This document shows, piece by piece, positions 4,562 to 12,301 of a stretch of 20,776 nt of DNA; position 1 is the first letter of the stretch; each line of letters opens with the position of its first letter. This DNA is from a virus. The stretch lies in IMG/VR virus record IMGVR_UViG_3300001213_000016, positions 1-20,776 of that record, one strand, 5' to 3'. Position numbers and translations under genes: made by a program. The notes below the pieces were generated by a model that saw only the letters and a program-made list of their open reading frames with translations, was not told the origin of the DNA and ran no database searches.

Positions 4562-5356
4562 TTATTCAATAGTTTGGTCAAAATAGGGCACCCAGTAACG
4601 AGTAGATCCTATAAATATTTTTACAAATCCTGTGTTATTTGCAGGGCTTGCAGAACCTATTGCCTTAACAGTTAGAGTTCCTGATCCCGATGCAGCATTT
4701 GTTTGACCTGTAATAGCAACTTGACTTCCAGTAGTGGAAACATCCCCTGCCACAATAAGAGATCCAGAAGATACAATGCTACCACCAAGGGTAGTTATGG
4801 TGCCAGAAGTGGATGTAATATCATTTTCAGCCGTAATATTTCCATTTCCCGAAGTGGCATTACTAACGAAGAGGTCTCCATTTGTAACAGTTATATCTCC
4901 TAAAGTAACCGTTACATCACCACTCTGAACACTAACACCTCCCGATTGAGCAACAATTCCCAATGCTCCTACAATTTGATTGCCTGCGTTAATGCTACCA
5001 GCGTTAGCATTAATATCACCGGAACCCACCGTTAAATTATGCCCAACACCATTCACAACCACGGAGGCATTAATATTCACCTGCCCGTTAAAGGTAGACG
5101 TTCCATCAACCAATAATGTTGAAAAGTGACCATCTCCTCCACCAGTGCTGAGCCATACTGCTGAATTATTAACTATAGAAGTCAAAATATAGGCAGCATT
5201 AGTTAATGCACTCGTAGTTCTTTTAACCCATATCGTCCCCAATTGAGCTTTATCTAGGGCAGTGGGGGCCCTACTGCTAATTATAGGGCTAGGGAACACA
5301 TTTATTATGGGCTGACTAAGGCCATATGCGTCAAGATTATTAGGATTGGTGGACAT
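4562..5356 (-). CDS. Tail-fibre protein, first gene of fibre operon
   Basis: I place the start at 5356 (264 residues, MSTNPNNLDAYGLSQPIINV) rather than the ATG at 5368. From this start it aligns without gaps to the start of the paralogue at 3690-4538, and GGGA lies seven bases before it. The N-terminal anchor has YGLSxPxINVFPxPI, then PTxxDKAQxGTxW and AAYxLTSIVNN. The middle has short beta repeats such as GDVTVTLGDITVTNGDLFV. The C-terminus GFVKIFIGSTRYWVPYF matches the paralogue's end. It is the first minus-strand gene left of the divergent regulatory region at 5411-5450, so it probably heads a fibre transcript of its own. Function is inferred from repeats and context. Confidence 0.8.
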   Translation of the reverse strand: MSTNPNNLDAYGLSQPIINVFPSPIISSRAPTALDKAQLGTIWVKRTTSALTNAAYILTSIVNNSAVWLSTGGGDGHFSTLLVDGTSTFNGQVNINASVVVNGVGHNLTVGSGDINANAGSINAGNQIVGALGIVAQSGGVSVQSGDVTVTLGDITVTNGDLFVSNATSGNGNITAENDITSTSGTITTLGGSIVSSGSLIVAGDVSTTGSQVAITGQTNAASGSGTLTVKAIGSASPANNTGFVKIFIGSTRYWVPYFDQTIE

Positions 5357-5410
5357 AAATAATCCCATTAAAAAGTTAATACTCCTATATAACCATATAG
5401 TTCTCGATGC

Positions 5411-5439
5411 GATATAAATTATTTGACAAATTCTGTCAT
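5411..5439 (-). promoter_or_regulatory. Candidate sigma70 promoter for tail-fibre operon
   Basis: Read on the minus strand, ATGACA (5434-5439) is followed after 17 bases by TATATC (5411-5416). This resembles a sigma70 promoter with one mismatch in the -35 box and two in the -10 box. It points toward the fibre gene starting at 5356. Its -35 box overlaps one arm of the inverted repeat at 5424-5438. It is seen by eye only, and AT-rich sequence raises the chance of a false match. Confidence 0.4.
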
Positions 5440-5450
5440 TAATTTAATAT
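5423..5450 (+). promoter_or_regulatory. Strong sigma70-like promoter for plus-strand cassette
   Basis: A perfect -35 box TTGACA (5423-5428) is followed after 16 bases by TAATAT (5445-5450). The predicted transcript starts near 5457, about 23 bases before the ATG of the ribbon-helix-helix gene at 5480, which has its own GAGGA ribosome binding site. This is the clearest promoter in the window. It supports independent expression of the cassette apart from the late genes around it. Confidence 0.6.
5424..5438. promoter_or_regulatory. Inverted-repeat operator between divergent promoters
   Basis: TGACA-AATTC-TGTCA is a perfect inverted repeat with 5-base arms and a 5-base spacer. Its left arm lies in the -35 box of the plus promoter and its right arm in the -35 box of the minus promoter. 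Ribbon-helix-helix proteins commonly bind short inverted repeats of this size as dimers of dimers, and the adjacent gene encodes one. That this protein binds this site, and so represses both promoters, is an inference. Confidence 0.45.
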
Positions 5451-5479
5451 ATTAATAAGTTAATAATTTATGAGGATTT

Positions 5480-5641
5480 ATGGACGAACAGAAATCACTT
5501 ACGGCAACCCTATCCGCGAGTGTTCCTAAAGAAATTCACACGCAGGTCAAGATGATGGCAGCCATGAAGGGTATAAGCGTACAGAGGTACATCGCGCAGG
5601 CGGTGATGATTAGGCTGGCAGAAGATCAAAAAGCACAATAA
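5480..5641 (+). CDS. Ribbon-helix-helix (CopG/Arc-type) small transcriptional regulator
   Basis: This 53-residue plus-strand protein begins MDEQKSLTATLSASVPKEIH. The layout is a short polar beta strand (LTATLSASVP), helix A (KEIHTQVKMMAAMKG), a turn (IS) and helix B (VQRYIAQAVMIRLAEDQK). The strand-helix-G-x-[ST]-helix pattern and the length are those of CopG/Arc-type ribbon-helix-helix DNA-binding proteins, which act as dimers inserting the beta ribbon in the major groove. A GAGGA ribosome binding site precedes the ATG and a near-consensus promoter lies upstream. It is the first gene of a three-gene cassette facing against all surrounding virion genes, as expected for an autoregulated accessory (moron) operon. 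Its targets are unknown; the repeat at 5424-5438 is the obvious candidate. Confidence 0.7.
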   Translation: MDEQKSLTATLSASVPKEIHTQVKMMAAMKGISVQRYIAQAVMIRLAEDQKAQ

Positions 5642-5680
5642 TCCTGAGGAGGAAACATAAACAAAGAATCACATAAGGTA

Positions 5681-5995
5681 ATGCCACTTCGCAAAGTTCA
5701 ATTTATTATAAAAAATTTCACCGATGAATCCACGAAGGATAATCCTATATTGCTAGAAAAGATCCCCTGGGCAGTTGGAATAGCTAATCTTACTAGACAT
5801 GACATATGCGCTCTTAGTTGTGAATTTGGGTGGTCATTCATTCCAGCATTTGAATGCTCATTGGTGACCTACGAAGGAAATGAGACAATATTCAAGCATT
5901 TAATGGGAGATCGTATCTTCTTAAGGATTCAAGAAAGCTATGAAACTGGATTAAGCAAAGAAGAAGTTATTGTAGATATTTATTATAAAGAATAA
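5681..5995 (+). CDS. Unknown small protein of plus-strand cassette
   Basis: From the ATG at 5681 this is a 104-residue protein with mixed alpha/beta character and three cysteines, no signal peptide and no membrane helix. I do not recognise a family. The start is uncertain: the ATG has only a poor, too-close AAGG. Twenty-four bases upstream and in frame, the codon ATA at 5657 follows a very strong GAGGAGGAAAC element, the same context (GAGGGGGAGAC then ATG) that precedes the next gene. Translation from the ATA would add eight residues (M-NKESHKV). It lies 39 bases after the ribbon-helix-helix gene and 16 bases before the next gene, so the three are probably co-transcribed. A role in host or phage interference is possible from its moron-like position but not shown. 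Confidence 0.7.
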   Translation: MPLRKVQFIIKNFTDESTKDNPILLEKIPWAVGIANLTRHDICALSCEFGWSFIPAFECSLVTYEGNETIFKHLMGDRIFLRIQESYETGLSKEEVIVDIYYKE

Positions 5996-6011
5996 ATCCC
6001 GAGGGGGAGAC

Positions 6012-6290
6012 ATGGAACTACAGAGCCTTATACGGGACTATAAGCAAGCTCTATCCGAATACGAGTTGGCTTCTAAGAAAAAAGAGTACATCAAAGAGCA
6101 ATTCCTGAAGGTGATCGAATGGCAACCGGGGACTTATGGAGATATCTTAGTATCTAAATCCAAGCAGCCCCCTATAGTTGAGTGGAAAGAGCTCATATCT
6201 CACTTATGCATAGAGCAAGAAGTTATATCTAGGTACACGGTTTACAGGCCTGAGATATTAAAGGTGACCGTTAAGAGATCTATTATATAA
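6012..6290 (+). CDS. Unknown small protein with N-terminal coiled coil
   Basis: This 92-residue protein follows a strong GAGGGGGAGAC ribosome binding site. Residues 1-35 (LIRDYKQALSEYELASKKKE and onward) form a likely amphipathic helix or short coiled coil. The second half (GTYGDILVSKSKQPPIVEWK, then ELISHL) has a short beta hairpin followed by a V-[ED]-W-K helix start, loosely like small DNA-recombination accessory modules in phages; that similarity is weak. It is the last gene of the plus-strand cassette. Its stop overlaps the stop of the convergent ejection-protein gene by 8 bases, and no clear plus-strand terminator follows. Function unknown. Confidence 0.7.
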   Translation: MELQSLIRDYKQALSEYELASKKKEYIKEQFLKVIEWQPGTYGDILVSKSKQPPIVEWKELISHLCIEQEVISRYTVYRPEILKVTVKRSII

Positions 6291-8418
6291 GCGGCCCACT
6301 AGACTCCTCTTCTCGCTTCACCTTACCCTTTTCAAGGTCTCTGAGGGCCCTAAGCAAACCGTGTTTATCTCCGAACATTGCTTCAGTAAATGCCTTTGCT
6401 AGTTCCCTTTTTCCAGCAGGAGATCGGGCGAAATCTAATGTTTCACTCAATTTTTTACCACCCAATACGGTACCTAGTTTTCCAAGGGGGGCCCATGATC
6501 CACCACCCAAAGCACCTAAACCGTTTAAGATAACTTTAGAAAGATAATATTTAGAACCAGTTACGCCCTCCAGAGCCTTAGTCATACTACTCATGAATCT
6601 AAGGCCAGCGGTATATGATTCTCCTTTGGCAAATGATTCACCAAAATCTGGAAATTTCTTTCCGATTCCGGTCAGCGTGTCCTTTAATAATTGAGATAAC
6701 TGTATATAGGGAACTTTGAGAGTGGGGTCATCAATTTGAGATATAGATCTATTAAGCATCTTCTTAAGATCCCATATTTCTTGAGCCCCTACTTCTTTGC
6801 CCCTCACTGCGTTTTCAACCTTAATAAAAGTTTTTCGGAGGTCTGAAGTCTCCGCAGGTGTTAAAACGGTCTCAAATTTCTTGAATATATTATTAGTTTC
6901 ATTTCTTATGGGCTGAGCTGGAACGGTTATTTTATTATCAACTATAGCTTTCTGGGCAATATTGTATGCCTCAGTCTTCCCTTTCTCAGACCTTGCTCTG
7001 GCAACGGTATAGAACGCATTACCGCCCTTTTTCCAGAAATCATACCCAGCGCTAGCCACTAAACTTCCTATCAGTTCAGCCCATGGTCCTCCAATCGCAT
7101 CTTTAGCAAGTGTAGATCCAAACGCTGAAACAGCAGCTTTCTCTGCGGCAGGCAATATAGCAGTCGTACCACCACTTAATATATGTGGTGCGAATGCACC
7201 CACATTTTCAGCGAAGGTCTGAATTCCGGATTCTAACTTATTTCGAGGTTCTAAATATCCCTCAGGTAGAACCTTCTCAGCAGCACCCTTAACCCTTTGC
7301 TGGATATCATTCATGGTTGGCAATATCTGTCCACCACTCTTAGGCAGCAGAGATTCTATACTTCCAGGTATACCCAGCAGACCGGCAGCTCCTTGTGCTC
7401 CCTTGACGATACCAGATACTGCATTCCTGCCCAAAGATCCAAGTATTCCTTCATTTTGTTGTTGAGGGGCAGATCGGGATCCAGCGATCAGTTCATGCTC
7501 CGGTTGCAGCGGAGGCTGAAGTAGGGATTGCTCCTTTTCTGATCGGTTGCCTTGCGAAGGTTGCTCATTACCAGAAAGATAATCTCTAATTTTAAGTTCT
7601 AGGTTAGCTGGCTCATTTCCATTATTACTGTTAACCAAATTTTCATAAGCGCTATATCTATTCAGAATATCATCGGATGATTGATCCAATTTTTCTAGAG
7701 CTCTTTTCTGTACTCTTATGTCTTGACCAATTTCAGGCTTCGTAGCCCGTATCATACGTGTTTTATAATCTGTTGCTCGACCGGATTTTGCAACTTCGGA
7801 TAAGGCAAGACGTTCATATATCTGCGCCAAACGCTGAGTCGGCGCACTCCATAATTCTTTAGGATATTTTGAAGCGAAGTATCCAGATTGTATATCAGGA
7901 TTTTCCAATAGTTTTCGTGCCTCTGCAACATCATCTTTAATAGATTGGGCTACAGGTCTATTATCACGCAGGTCCTTAACGATAGGGGAATTTTTCTTAT
8001 CTATATACTGCTGTATCTTCCTAGATTCTTCACGCCTATCTCGTTGCTCCCTTAATGGTAATTGTGTGAACGCTCCAAATGCCCCAGATGACTTATTTGA
8101 TCCCTGGGGACCAAGTTTTCCCTCTGATCCTGATGTATTTCCCTCGGATTGAGCAGATTGCTGTTCTTGTAGAGACGCAAGAGCACCTGACTGACTTAAA
8201 GCCTTTATCAGATCTACTTGCTGATCAGGAGTATATCCAGAAAGAAACCCCGCTATGTCTTTAGGAAATCCTCCCTGCTCGAATCTTTGCTGACTTTTCT
8301 GCTGCACACCTCGAGCCATAAGTTCATTTATCTTATGCTGAGCGAGCGCTTGCAACCCAGTTCCGAAGGATGCGCCCAGTCTGCCACCTATTGATGGTAT
8401 GTCTAATATTGTGGCCAT
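6283..8418 (-). CDS. Large internal virion / DNA-ejection protein (putative)
   Basis: I use the ATG at 8418 (711 residues), which has AGGA seven bases upstream; the longer frame to 8463 lies inside the preceding gene. Residues 1-45 are a helical segment (GLQALAQHKINELMARGVQQ). A Gln/Ser/Gly-rich linker follows to about 115, then long charged helices to about 280, a disordered Gln-rich patch (285-320), hydrophobic Gly/Ala segments (323-360 and 402-462) and a helical C-terminus with a charged tail. A large, helical, membrane-active-looking protein between tail and fibre genes fits the ejected inner-core proteins of podoviruses. No lysozyme or transglycosylase motif is evident. The assignment rests on composition and position, not on a recognised domain. 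Confidence 0.65.
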   Translation of the reverse strand: MATILDIPSIGGRLGASFGTGLQALAQHKINELMARGVQQKSQQRFEQGGFPKDIAGFLSGYTPDQQVDLIKALSQSGALASLQEQQSAQSEGNTSGSEGKLGPQGSNKSSGAFGAFTQLPLREQRDRREESRKIQQYIDKKNSPIVKDLRDNRPVAQSIKDDVAEARKLLENPDIQSGYFASKYPKELWSAPTQRLAQIYERLALSEVAKSGRATDYKTRMIRATKPEIGQDIRVQKRALEKLDQSSDDILNRYSAYENLVNSNNGNEPANLELKIRDYLSGNEQPSQGNRSEKEQSLLQPPLQPEHELIAGSRSAPQQQNEGILGSLGRNAVSGIVKGAQGAAGLLGIPGSIESLLPKSGGQILPTMNDIQQRVKGAAEKVLPEGYLEPRNKLESGIQTFAENVGAFAPHILSGGTTAILPAAEKAAVSAFGSTLAKDAIGGPWAELIGSLVASAGYDFWKKGGNAFYTVARARSEKGKTEAYNIAQKAIVDNKITVPAQPIRNETNNIFKKFETVLTPAETSDLRKTFIKVENAVRGKEVGAQEIWDLKKMLNRSISQIDDPTLKVPYIQLSQLLKDTLTGIGKKFPDFGESFAKGESYTAGLRFMSSMTKALEGVTGSKYYLSKVILNGLGALGGGSWAPLGKLGTVLGGKKLSETLDFARSPAGKRELAKAFTEAMFGDKHGLLRALRDLEKGKVKREEESSGPLI

Positions 8419-8419
8419 A

Positions 8420-9325
8420 TCAATATCCTTTCGATAAATATTCGATGATTGCCTGCAGTTCATTACCGCTTCCGCTCATCCTTGGAGCACCCTGTGGGGA
8501 CATGGCTCCATATTCCTGCTGGGTGAACGGATTAACTGTCTGAGGCAATGGATTTCCGCCAAACTTATAACCCGTAGGTAGCAGCTCCTGGCTGGCTGAC
8601 CATGGCTCCTGAGAGCCCCTTGATTTGTTTTGGTCTAGGTAATCCATAAACAACTGAATCCACTGAGGACCATACTGGGCAACAGCATTGGCAGTATTTT
8701 CAGCAAATGAAGGCTGTTCCTTCTTATATATGTTCTCACCCTGGTTACCCAGATTGGATAAGAGGGCGTATAGTCCATACTGTTGAGCCGCAAGATCCTG
8801 ATCTAATTGAGCCCCGGCTCCCAGAGCTTGACCCTGAAACGCTGGAGATGATAATAAATTGGGAGTATTGGTCAAAGAAGAAAATCTATTGGCCAGCGAA
8901 GGAACTGTTTCTGTTTGGAATCTTCTCTGGGCCTGCTTTGCTATAGGATTAAGACCGCCCTCGCCGCTGATTATGCCCTGGGCTAGTTTAAGATTTAGAT
9001 CCTGAAGCGCCTGTTGCTGAGGCGTCAGATTAGGAATGGATTGCCCGGGAGTTCTATCAAATATGCCGCCGAAAGGGCTGGATTGTTGGGTCTGCCCGGG
9101 TGTACCATTATTTCTTGAAGGATATGGTACTGGATTATTTTTTGATCCTACAGGACCAGGATTCTCTTTGTGTTTGTTGCCACCAAACCAATCATAGAGA
9201 AGGCCGCCTATGGTCCCCACTCCTGTCCCTATTGCCGTTCCAACTCCAGGTATAAAAGACCCTACGGATCCTCCGTAATTTGCACCTTTAACTGCCGACC
9301 TAAGGGCTCTTCCTGCATCTGCCAT
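8420..9325 (-). CDS. Internal virion / ejection protein (putative)
   Basis: This 301-residue protein has an AGGA ribosome binding site and its TGA stop ends just before the next gene's ATG. Residues 15-50 (GANYGGSVGSFIPGVGTAIG, then TGVGTIGGLLYDWFGG) form a Gly-rich hydrophobic segment with repeated GxxxG spacing that could insert into membranes. Residues 55-95 are a Pro/Gly/Asn/Gln linker. Residues 100-215 are helical and rich in Ala, Gln and Leu, and the C-terminus is disordered. This layout, next to a large partner of similar type, matches small ejection proteins of short-tailed phages that form a trans-envelope conduit. No sequence family is recognised with certainty. Confidence 0.6.
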   Translation of the reverse strand: MADAGRALRSAVKGANYGGSVGSFIPGVGTAIGTGVGTIGGLLYDWFGGNKHKENPGPVGSKNNPVPYPSRNNGTPGQTQQSSPFGGIFDRTPGQSIPNLTPQQQALQDLNLKLAQGIISGEGGLNPIAKQAQRRFQTETVPSLANRFSSLTNTPNLLSSPAFQGQALGAGAQLDQDLAAQQYGLYALLSNLGNQGENIYKKEQPSFAENTANAVAQYGPQWIQLFMDYLDQNKSRGSQEPWSASQELLPTGYKFGGNPLPQTVNPFTQQEYGAMSPQGAPRMSGSGNELQAIIEYLSKGY

Positions 9326-9332
9326 ATCAATC

Positions 9333-9875
9333 CTAATTTTTAAGATATTCGAGTATCACATATGTGACATTAAAGTTAGTTCTATCAGATACCGTAGTAA
9401 TAGCCACGTCGGTCGGAGTTATACGGATTTGTATATTATCAGTACCCGCAGCATCAGCATAAGGTATGGGTATATAGGCTAGCGTAGTGGTGTCACTTGC
9501 CGTGGCATATATGCGAGTAAAGGTTACTGCAAGATTGGTTGATATATTATGTGGCACCAGCTTAGTCGCTGTATTTGGGAGAGCTCCAAAGTTAATCACC
9601 ATTCTAAACACTTGGCGCTGGGTGGGCTGCTGAGATGTCTGCGAGCTCAGCGCTGGATTACTAAAGAATGTCTGACCATTCACAAACTCTTGGTTTTGAT
9701 AGATACCCGTGTCTTTAACATTCAGCACCAAAGCCATGAGATTAAGGTTCTGATACATACGAACCAAGAGCTCTTTAAACTCTGGAGAACTTACATCCGT
9801 CTCATTAATTTGAGATATAACGTCGTATACACTGGTCGTTGGAACATAAGCACCAAATTGTGTTGCGTCGGCCAT
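9333..9875 (-). CDS. Beta-rich tail/neck structural protein
   Basis: This is a 180-residue protein whose ATG overlaps the stop of the 808-residue gene (TAATG), indicating translational coupling. Residues 10-60 are helical (VYDVISQINETDVSSPEFKE, then LLVRMYQNLNLMALVLN). The rest is beta-rich, with the pattern FRMVINFGALPNTATKLVPH and an end TNFNVTYVILEYLKN. I recall similar unnamed proteins downstream of nozzle genes in environmental podovirus-like phages. Coupling to the nozzle-like gene suggests a partner at the tail tip, a neck collar or a fibre socket. Its exact role cannot be read from the sequence. Confidence 0.65.
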   Translation of the reverse strand: MADATQFGAYVPTTSVYDVISQINETDVSSPEFKELLVRMYQNLNLMALVLNVKDTGIYQNQEFVNGQTFFSNPALSSQTSQQPTQRQVFRMVINFGALPNTATKLVPHNISTNLAVTFTRIYATASDTTTLAYIPIPYADAAGTDNIQIRITPTDVAITTVSDRTNFNVTYVILEYLKN

Positions 9876-12301
9876 TACATCATCCTAGAGGTTGTTGGCT
9901 GTGTGTAGAAAACGAGCGCCTCGAGTTCAAAGTCTGACATTGATATGGAAGGCACTACCATTTGATTAGTAGTCATATATAGATACAGCTGGATACAATT
10001 TCCCGAACTTTGGAAATATATCGGGTGCCATAGCCTATCCTGGAACTGTTCAAGCGGATAATATACGGGGCTATACGGCTTGGTTTCCAATACCGAGTTA
10101 CCCATTATAGAAGCAGTTGCAAGGCCGCCCTGTATCATAGATACGGAGCTGTCTGAAGGATAATAATCGACCGTTATTTCTCCACCAGTTATCACATATT
10201 CATCGTTTATGAGCTGAATCGAACCCGTTTTTTGTACCGCAAAGTCTACCTTATGCAGAAATACATTCCGGTCAGACTTCATGTAGGGATTAATCTGCTT
10301 GGTGGCTATCTGTATGTTGGATACGCGGGCCGCGGTTCCGCCTCCGGTATACTCTCCATCGGTCAATATAAGTCCATACCGAGTGGGATTAGTATCAATA
10401 CGTATGGTATTTACATCTACAAATTCCACAGGAAATATAGATCCATTCAGGACGGTCTCAGTAAATACATCACCCGTCACATTCTCGATGAATATAAAGT
10501 CAGAATTTTCGGTAAATCCTTCAGAGTTGTCTGCTGAAAAGTTATGATTCTTAATGGTAAGAAGCAACTTCCCATTGCCATTCACCCACGGGTTGGTCGG
10601 AGTTACACTATCGTTCGTTATATTACTGATCTGCAAAGACGGCGCATTGCGAGATATATCCGATGATATTCTCAAGACAAATCCCACTTGGTTTCCTGCA
10701 AGTATCTGGCGCTGATTAGCCGCTATGATATTAGAAGTCCACGAGCCACTGAAGTTTGCCCAGGTTGAGTTAGTGGTAGCCCAAGTTAGATCCACTTGCT
10801 GCTCAAAATACCCAAAGGTCGTGAAGCAATCATCAAAGAGAGCCCATGAACCATTCTTGTAGTTATAGATCAAGAGTTGGTTGGGATATGTCTGAGTAGC
10901 AGTTGATGTTGTCTCAACAAAAGTCCAAAATGCTAGCTCGTTGTAGTAGTCGCGAATACCCGCAGTGCGTATCGTGGCATTATTTTTGGTCTCAAAGCTA
11001 TCAAAGACTTCATTAGGTATCTTATCATCAATACGAACGACGTTTGATCCATTGCACGAATGTATTCCGGTGTTGCCAACGGTAAGGACTTGCTTATCAA
11101 AGGGCACTGTGCTGAACGTGGATTGCGATCCCAGCTCGGTATTGATCTTCTGAAAGGCAAAAGGTGTTACTTGGTTACCCGTAAAAACGAGCTCCCAGGT
11201 AGATCTTTCAAAGTAGACTATCAGGCGATCTTTTATAAACTCAGCGCTTATGATTTGCTCATCGGTGGCCGCATCAATTGCCGTTCCGCCCGCTCCAGGA
11301 TTACCCAACGAATCTAATTGATTCCATTCATACCATGCATTGACAGCGAAAGGATTTCCGTACCATGACCAACGAGCTCGACCGGGATAAGCGGTATTTA
11401 CGCCCGCCCCACCGCTATTATCATTCTCGATGGTATTAAGAAGAACTAATCTATTCTTAAATGGCACTATTATTCGAGCGGTCTTTACGTATGCCCCCGT
11501 GTGGACGGCGCCACCGGCAGGCCTGAAGTAAAATGCATTAGCGCCACTTGCAGCAACCCATGTAGATCCATCAACAGTATACCAAATAGGGTCATCGGTA
11601 GCTGCAGGAGTCGGAACTGTCGCATTAAAGTTTGTAGTGAATAGTACTACAGATCCAGGATCTGCCTGCCAATTGGTAGACCAGAAAAAGTTAGTGTCAG
11701 TTCCGTGCCAAACGGCGGTACCCGATCTATTCCACCCGCTTGCCGGCGTATAGAGGTATACGAACTTAGTATCAAATGCATAGGTTGGGTGGTTGTTGAT
11801 AGCACCGGTCTCATATTGGGTTATGCCCATCACTGGCAAACCGGGATACCAGTACACGGTAGTGAGAGCTATCGCTATATCACTACCGCTAACTTGTAGT
11901 TGGTACACATTAGGAGGCGTTGACAAAAGTCTGAGCGTCCCCACGGTAGTTGTATTGCTTAGTGTAGGAAGATCCCCCCCAGCGCCCACTACTGTTGGAA
12001 CCTGATAGACAGTTAAAATAGTAGCCCCTATGGAAAACATAGCTCCAATTTCCAGTACATTCCCCGGAAGGGTAGTGAATGCCAAGTCTCCCGAGGCATC
12101 CGTAGTGCCAATATTTACCCGAAGTCTACTGGTAAGTACGTTGGACCCCATGACCAATGACCCGAAACGCTTCCTAACTCTTCCCCTGAATACATAAGCG
12201 TTCTGAAGTTCGGTGAACGCATCATCCAATACGAGGAAGGGTTTTAAATCTGTTTGCAATCCGGTATTAAATGGTGCGATTAGAAAGCGATCAAATGCCA
12301 T
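9875..12301 (-). CDS. Large tail nozzle / tail-tubular-B-like protein
   Basis: At 808 residues this is the largest gene in the window, with an AGGA ribosome binding site. It begins MAFDRFLIAPFNTGLQTDLK and continues with FxxLxNAYVFRGRVRKRFGS, a start typical of large beta-propeller-like tail proteins in podovirus-like phages. Residues 345-500 contain the characteristic run DRLIVYFERSTWELVFTGN, then TELGSQSTFSTVPFDKQVL, GNTGIHSCNG and YNYKNGSWALFDDCFTTFGY. These repeated strand-turn units resemble T7 gp12 (tail tubular protein B) and P22 gp10. In those phages the protein forms the nozzle below the adaptor and closes or guides the DNA channel. Which of the two it is closer to is not clear. Order adaptor, fibre, nozzle, ejection proteins supports the call. 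Confidence 0.7.
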   Translation of the reverse strand: MAFDRFLIAPFNTGLQTDLKPFLVLDDAFTELQNAYVFRGRVRKRFGSLVMGSNVLTSRLRVNIGTTDASGDLAFTTLPGNVLEIGAMFSIGATILTVYQVPTVVGAGGDLPTLSNTTTVGTLRLLSTPPNVYQLQVSGSDIAIALTTVYWYPGLPVMGITQYETGAINNHPTYAFDTKFVYLYTPASGWNRSGTAVWHGTDTNFFWSTNWQADPGSVVLFTTNFNATVPTPAATDDPIWYTVDGSTWVAASGANAFYFRPAGGAVHTGAYVKTARIIVPFKNRLVLLNTIENDNSGGAGVNTAYPGRARWSWYGNPFAVNAWYEWNQLDSLGNPGAGGTAIDAATDEQIISAEFIKDRLIVYFERSTWELVFTGNQVTPFAFQKINTELGSQSTFSTVPFDKQVLTVGNTGIHSCNGSNVVRIDDKIPNEVFDSFETKNNATIRTAGIRDYYNELAFWTFVETTSTATQTYPNQLLIYNYKNGSWALFDDCFTTFGYFEQQVDLTWATTNSTWANFSGSWTSNIIAANQRQILAGNQVGFVLRISSDISRNAPSLQISNITNDSVTPTNPWVNGNGKLLLTIKNHNFSADNSEGFTENSDFIFIENVTGDVFTETVLNGSIFPVEFVDVNTIRIDTNPTRYGLILTDGEYTGGGTAARVSNIQIATKQINPYMKSDRNVFLHKVDFAVQKTGSIQLINDEYVITGGEITVDYYPSDSSVSMIQGGLATASIMGNSVLETKPYSPVYYPLEQFQDRLWHPIYFQSSGNCIQLYLYMTTNQMVVPSISMSDFELEALVFYTQPTTSRMM

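Follow-up and report, generated by a model that had tools for sequence, protein, structure and literature searches.

Here we describe a small cassette, antisense to the late genes of an uncultured podophage, that is likely to be an accessory locus at a fixed genomic site, repressed by its own ribbon-helix-helix (RHH) protein and loaded with exchangeable cargo, in a clade of phages with a P22-type portal. The sequence analyzed, referred to here as the window, is a 20,776-bp IMG/VR virus fragment whose minus strand carries every head, tail, ejection, and fibre gene. Sequence comparison with relatives brought out the fixed site, the conservation of the RHH gene, the variability of the cargo, a promoter that faces one way, a local palindrome, and selection on one cargo protein, ORF3.

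As the original prediction had it, three small plus-strand genes (the RHH gene, ORF2, and ORF3) are located between ejection-type and fibre genes on the minus strand (Table 1). The ejection-type gene is convergent with ORF3, and their ends overlap by 8 bp. The fibre-type gene is divergent from the RHH gene, with the two starts 111 bp apart and no ORF between the RHH gene and the fibre start in the window. The promoter that had been proposed for the cassette is present and matches 10 of the 12 consensus bases. Strong ribosome binding sites were also part of that prediction; good ones were found for the RHH gene (GAGG) and ORF3 (GAGGGGGAG) but not for ORF2 as annotated, whose strong AGGAGG precedes an ATA codon and not the ATG at position 5681. 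This AGGAGG is ideally placed for the ATA at position 5657, eight codons upstream of the ATG, which would give a 112-aa version of the protein; the ATA is possibly a non-standard start or an altered start codon of ORF2.

Table 1. Features of the cassette locus in the window
Feature	Position	Strand	Description
Fibre-type late gene	4562-5368	-	268 aa; N-terminal part also found in the fibres that relatives encode at this position
Cassette promoter	5423-5450	+	-35 TTGACA, 16-nt spacer, -10 TAATAT
Candidate RHH operator	5444-5455	unstranded	Perfect palindrome TTAATATATTAA; overlaps the -10 box
RHH gene	5480-5641	+	53 aa; repressor of the MetJ/Arc ribbon-helix-helix type; leads the cassette
ORF2	5681-5995	+	104 aa (112 aa from the ATA at 5657); orphan cargo gene
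ORF3	6012-6290	+	92 aa; conserved cargo; probable stand-alone domain of the RecE/YqaJ C-terminal type, divergent
Ejection-type late gene	6283-8463	-	726 aa; named from position and from synteny in relatives

The first gene does encode an RHH protein, as first proposed. It matches Pfam HicB just above the gathering cut-off (21.6 bits against 21) and the Arc-like repressors of PHROGs with an E value of 0.002, and it combines the features that define the MetJ/Arc superfamily, namely, a strand-helix-helix order, a length of ~45 residues, and an RHH profile match. The profile of the whole family matches Arc and other RHH structures. Its best PDB match (1e-5) is the Arc entry set 1b28/1myl, which includes an engineered Arc mutant, while wild-type Arc and Mnt match the profile in register at only ~13 bits. 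The pair 1b28/1myl is Arc-MYL, a mutant that has hydrophobic residues in place of a buried salt bridge; like Arc-MYL, the family consensus is without the charged triad of the Arc salt bridge. Orthology to either Mnt or Arc is not demonstrable at this level of sequence similarity. It is of note that in G048, L160, L166, L201, and L204, the plain RHH gene is replaced by a fusion of 147 to 164 aa in which an HNH-type N-terminal part is joined to the RHH domain.

The Pfam matches of the protein are the HicB, ParD, and CopG antitoxins, and these matches would be in line with a toxin-antitoxin module in which the RHH protein is the antitoxin and ORF2 or ORF3 is the toxin. However, at ~50 aa, the protein is essentially a DNA-binding domain with no toxin-binding tail, it is solitary in at least 13 relatives, and the gene next to it varies by lineage. 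Neither ORF2 nor ORF3 matches a toxin family, and we regard such a module as improbable.

To what extent the locus is shared was established from a major capsid protein search, which gave 592 related IMG/VR stretches, and from a search with a conserved 113-aa tail-region protein, which gave 168 places, 80 of which were kept; the cassette site was reconstructed in 101 genomes or fragments. An antisense RHH gene was present at the site in 87 of the 92-93 relatives with sequence on both flanks, at a median distance of 135 nt from the fibre start, and at the contig end in two further relatives. Clear exceptions were L197, L198, and L206, with G021 left unclassed. Consistent numbers came from a search of whole records, where the RHH profile was found in 45 of the 49 near-full-length records, mostly once per genome. 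Judged by these comparisons, nearly all members of the clade have the RHH gene fixed at this site, and it is not an occasional moron; only the cargo is moron-like. Of the moron-like cassette envisaged originally, the cargo thus fits the description, as it differs between relatives, but the RHH gene does not. The comparison of relatives at this site had been proposed beforehand as a check, and its outcome was that cargo presence varies while the RHH gene stays. We rejected a reading of all the genes as conserved parts of the virion, because the cargo is present in some relatives and missing from others and because the genes are antisense to the virion genes. In the RHH-less relatives L206 (positions 7345 to 8617) and L198 (positions 7441 to 7713), the same site holds antisense membrane and coiled-coil proteins that share a DFHGR motif.

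Behind the RHH gene, relatives carry from 0 to ~8 cargo genes drawn from many unrelated families; HNH-type proteins make up one of the two largest, and a coiled-coil family, referred to here as A5, is the other. A transmembrane (TM) stretch was predicted in 85 of 160 cargo proteins; ORF2 and ORF3 of the window have none. Taking a moron to be a gene with its own promoter that is inserted among late genes and absent from relatives, ORF2 (in no relative) and ORF3 (in one relative) answer to this description and the nearly universal RHH gene does not. No anti-defence match was obtained for ORF2 or ORF3 in PHROGs, Pfam, NCBIfam, or PADLOC. A subclade formed by G048, L159, L160, L161, and L166 has a long, partly shared cassette of ~8 to 9 genes, with many small proteins that have signal-peptide-like starts.

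The promoter was assessed against shuffles of the 110-nt upstream region, none of which reached the score of the site in the window, weaker sites being common by chance. Among 65 distinct upstream regions of relatives, promoters with at least 10 of 12 matches were directed toward the RHH gene in 40%, compared with 7% in shuffles; toward the fibre gene, the same regions showed no enrichment (4.6% versus 7%). The 12-bp palindrome that overlaps the -10 box is present as a single copy in the window and, taken alone, is not significant in AT-rich DNA. However, palindromes of the form TGTAYA-N-TRTACA were found at the same place in 11 of the 65 regions, compared with 0.13 for shuffles and 0.08 for the genome background. 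Over 1.39 Mb, TGTAYA-N1-5-TRTACA occurs 20 times, with 15 of the occurrences, some of them from near-identical genomes, falling in the ~60 nt that precede the RHH gene. No second palindrome site was found in the whole 37-kb genome G001, and the palindrome sequences differ strongly among genomes. Because the promoter faces the RHH gene only and the palindrome is nearly absent elsewhere, the upstream sequences support local autorepression by the RHH protein. They give no hint of distant RHH targets, and other genomes may differ in this regard.

A different role for the RHH protein would be regulation of the fibre or late genes, with the cargo being incidental, and control of the fibre genes had been among the original suggestions. 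Its short, fixed distance to the fibre gene would be compatible with this, as would its persistence in 13 relatives that have no room for any cargo, which pure control of cargo does not account for. However, promoters toward the fibre gene are not enriched over shuffles, and the palindrome, which overlaps the promoter of the RHH gene, has a single copy in the window and a single copy in G001. These results go against fibre gene control, and we consider this role unlikely. For the favored reading of a locally acting autorepressor, the strand of the cassette bears on timing: the cassette and the ERF recombination gene share a strand in 42 of 44 genomes, and because of this, we infer that the cassette is expressed early, a term that rests here on strand and promoter type.

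ORF2 has no homologues in IMG/VR, phage records, Pfam, PHROGs, NCBIfam, or PADLOC, and its AlphaFold model (pLDDT of 44) is not usable; it is presumably an orphan accessory cargo protein. ORF3 is found in a single relative, L001, where a protein with 81% identity is encoded at the same site without ORF2. Its dN/dS against L001 is ~0.06, an approximate value as synonymous sites are near saturation, compared with 1.3 and 3.4 in the other two frames and 0.04 for a virion gene; by these ratios, ORF3 is under strong purifying selection. These values also bear on whether the ORFs are spurious or are decayed remnants antisense to late transcripts. The absence of ORF2 homologues would agree with that possibility, and we rejected ORF length as coding evidence, with the probability of a longest run of at least 104 being 0.09 in shuffles of the region, so that the lengths are within chance. 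However, all three genes (the RHH gene, ORF2, and ORF3) have their best codon score in the frame that was annotated. With the selection on ORF3 and the conservation of the RHH gene in the clade, a spurious origin is already refuted for these two genes, though not for ORF2, and as an account of the cassette, it is very improbable.

No match to ORF3 was found in phage and plasmid records. Its structural model (pLDDT of 69) has a long helix, a beta hairpin, a helix, and two strands, and a fold search with this model in BFVD was uninformative (best E value of 0.13). In a profile alignment with family A5 (hhalign), ORF3 scored 23.0 over 59 columns at a probability of only 19%, compared with a maximum of 17.8 over 20 columns among 126 decoys (44 families and 82 helix-rich decoys). 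Family A5, in turn, matches the C-terminal part of the RecE-like exonuclease phrog_434: 3 of 10 members match, the best at 3.4e-5, and the match spans profile positions ~268 to 362 of 372; ORF3 itself is below significance against phrog_434. L206 encodes a full-length YqaJ exonuclease with this RecE/YqaJ C-terminal domain at its end. A5 was found in 9 of 50 long records, with one clear match each, located in the RHH cassette in some records and next to the ERF gene, or not far from it, in most of the rest but never at both places in one genome. ORF3 is, from these profile comparisons, probably a member of a family of stand-alone RecE/YqaJ C-terminal domains. Because its profile is akin to that of A5, because A5 matches the RecE-like C terminus, and because A5 is often near ERF, we lean slightly toward ORF3 being a recombination partner.

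The original prediction also allowed for cargo that protects a lysogen. In searches with working controls, a tyrosine integrase was found in none of 49 near-complete records and a resolvase or serine integrase in none of 43. A major capsid protein search of 84,980 species genomes returned four short contigs (3 to 6.5 kb) and no chromosomal prophage. These contigs, from metagenome-assembled genomes (MAGs) of Thermotoga, Saccharibacteria, Parachlamydiaceae, and Methylococcaceae, are probably misbinned, and a host assignment from them was rejected. L139, a capsid relative (88%) on the 6.5-kb Parachlamydiaceae contig, either hints at a host or was misbinned.

Lysogenic conversion would have the cassette expressed from a prophage and protecting the lysogen in the manner of P22 sieA, with the RHH protein tuning the dose. 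The place and order of the genes are as in P22 sieA-orf59a-mnt, many cargo proteins of relatives are small and of membrane type, and the cassette has its own promoter, all of which would suit this idea. However, ORF2 and ORF3 are without a TM stretch, and lysogen protection is the less likely role because neither an integrase nor a prophage was found, although the records may be incomplete. This part of the original prediction is weakened, and lysogenic conversion has, in our estimate, a small chance of being correct; an early accessory role in lytic infection fits better.

Taken together, the data suggest the following scheme for the cassette, in which timing, autorepression, and cargo functions are put forward conditionally. 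The sigma70-type promoter would fire on the strand of the early and recombination genes, so that the RHH protein and the cargo would be made early in infection. An RHH dimer would then bind the palindrome over the -10 box and shut its own promoter, which would limit the dose of cargo and clear the promoter on the antisense strand ahead of late-operon readthrough of the site. The RHH gene would be the conserved anchor, and the cargo behind it would be exchanged between phages. Cargo roles may include small membrane proteins of the exclusion or anti-defence type, HNH endonucleases, and recombination partners. ORF3 would most likely act as a stand-alone RecE/YqaJ C-terminal-type domain together with the phage ERF annealing protein, and ORF2 would be an accessory protein of the cassette.

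Two further features of the clade are worth recording. The homologue of the 180-aa protein encoded at positions 9333 to 9875 of the window (p180) is inverted relative to its neighbors p808 and p301 in about 12 relatives, while the surroundings keep their orientation (L087/L125, L098/L126, L101/L127, L104/L128, L107/L129, L108/L130, L109/L131, L110/L132, L111/L136, L112/L133, L115/L134, L122/L135, and L147). Furthermore, the highly conserved capsid gene is split in G001 (L083, L084; L086 at ~10200 to 11600) by ~370 bp holding a 79-aa ORF, and the capsid gene of L064 (positions 4615 to 5779) is split by ~220 bp; no Rfam intron family matched these inserts.

More speculatively, in a large clade of uncultured, apparently non-integrating podophages with a P22-type portal, the RHH autorepressor may mark a universal slot in which early accessory genes can be exchanged, and this slot may hold new counter-defence or exclusion proteins, ORF2 included, as well as stand-alone RecE C-terminal domains that assist recombination by ERF or weaken host nucleases. 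The RHH gene can serve as a bait, since the next genes on the same strand are accessory cargo in nearly every relative, and one RHH profile search yields a list of small phage proteins that can be tested for exclusion, counter-defence, and recombination.

Several known systems share features with this cassette. With the HicB, ParD, and CopG antitoxins, it has the RHH DNA-binding domain in common, but it has neither the toxin-binding extension nor a partner toxin. The C-terminal domain of RecE/YqaJ (lambda-exonuclease family) is related through the A5 profile match and the resemblance of ORF3 to A5 in profile and predicted layout, whereas here the domain would stand alone, without a nuclease domain. 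In anti-CRISPR-associated (Aca) operons, small accessory genes are likewise accompanied by a small DNA-binding protein that represses its own operon from an operator, here a candidate, lying over the operon promoter. However, Aca families are described as helix-turn-helix proteins (PMC9410906), whereas in the cassette, the regulator is an RHH protein and the first gene, and no Acr was identified.

By layout and position, the nearest known system appears to be the mnt-orf59a-sieA arm of P22 immI, although strict membership is not claimed. In the P22 record (BK000583), the injection genes 7-20-16 are followed by sieA, orf59a, and mnt in antisense orientation and then by arc, ant, and tailspike gene 9. 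The P22-like interval in the late operon has been called "very variable," and all that phage L retains there is a homologue of mnt plus one small orf (PMC8022706). The arc-ant arm with its divergent Pant promoter was not seen in the window or the clade, and relatives of the window phage are without a detected integrase. No homologues of SieA or orf59a were found among the ORFs of relatives, and the ejection proteins of the clade have no detectable similarity to P22 gp16 or gp20. In both systems, however, the site lies between an ejection gene (16 in P22) and a tailspike or fibre gene (9 in P22), an RHH repressor is nearest the spike with small cargo behind it, all of these genes are antisense to the late genes, and the interval varies among relatives. 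Moreover, the clade has a P22-type portal (PF16510, 1e-72 in G001) and an ERF recombinase (annealing protein in 47 of 50 records). This likeness suggests that the layout of immI, in which a repressor heads an antisense slot between the ejection and spike genes, extends beyond the temperate phages of enterobacteria and can be maintained in the absence of an antirepressor and, apparently, of lysogeny.
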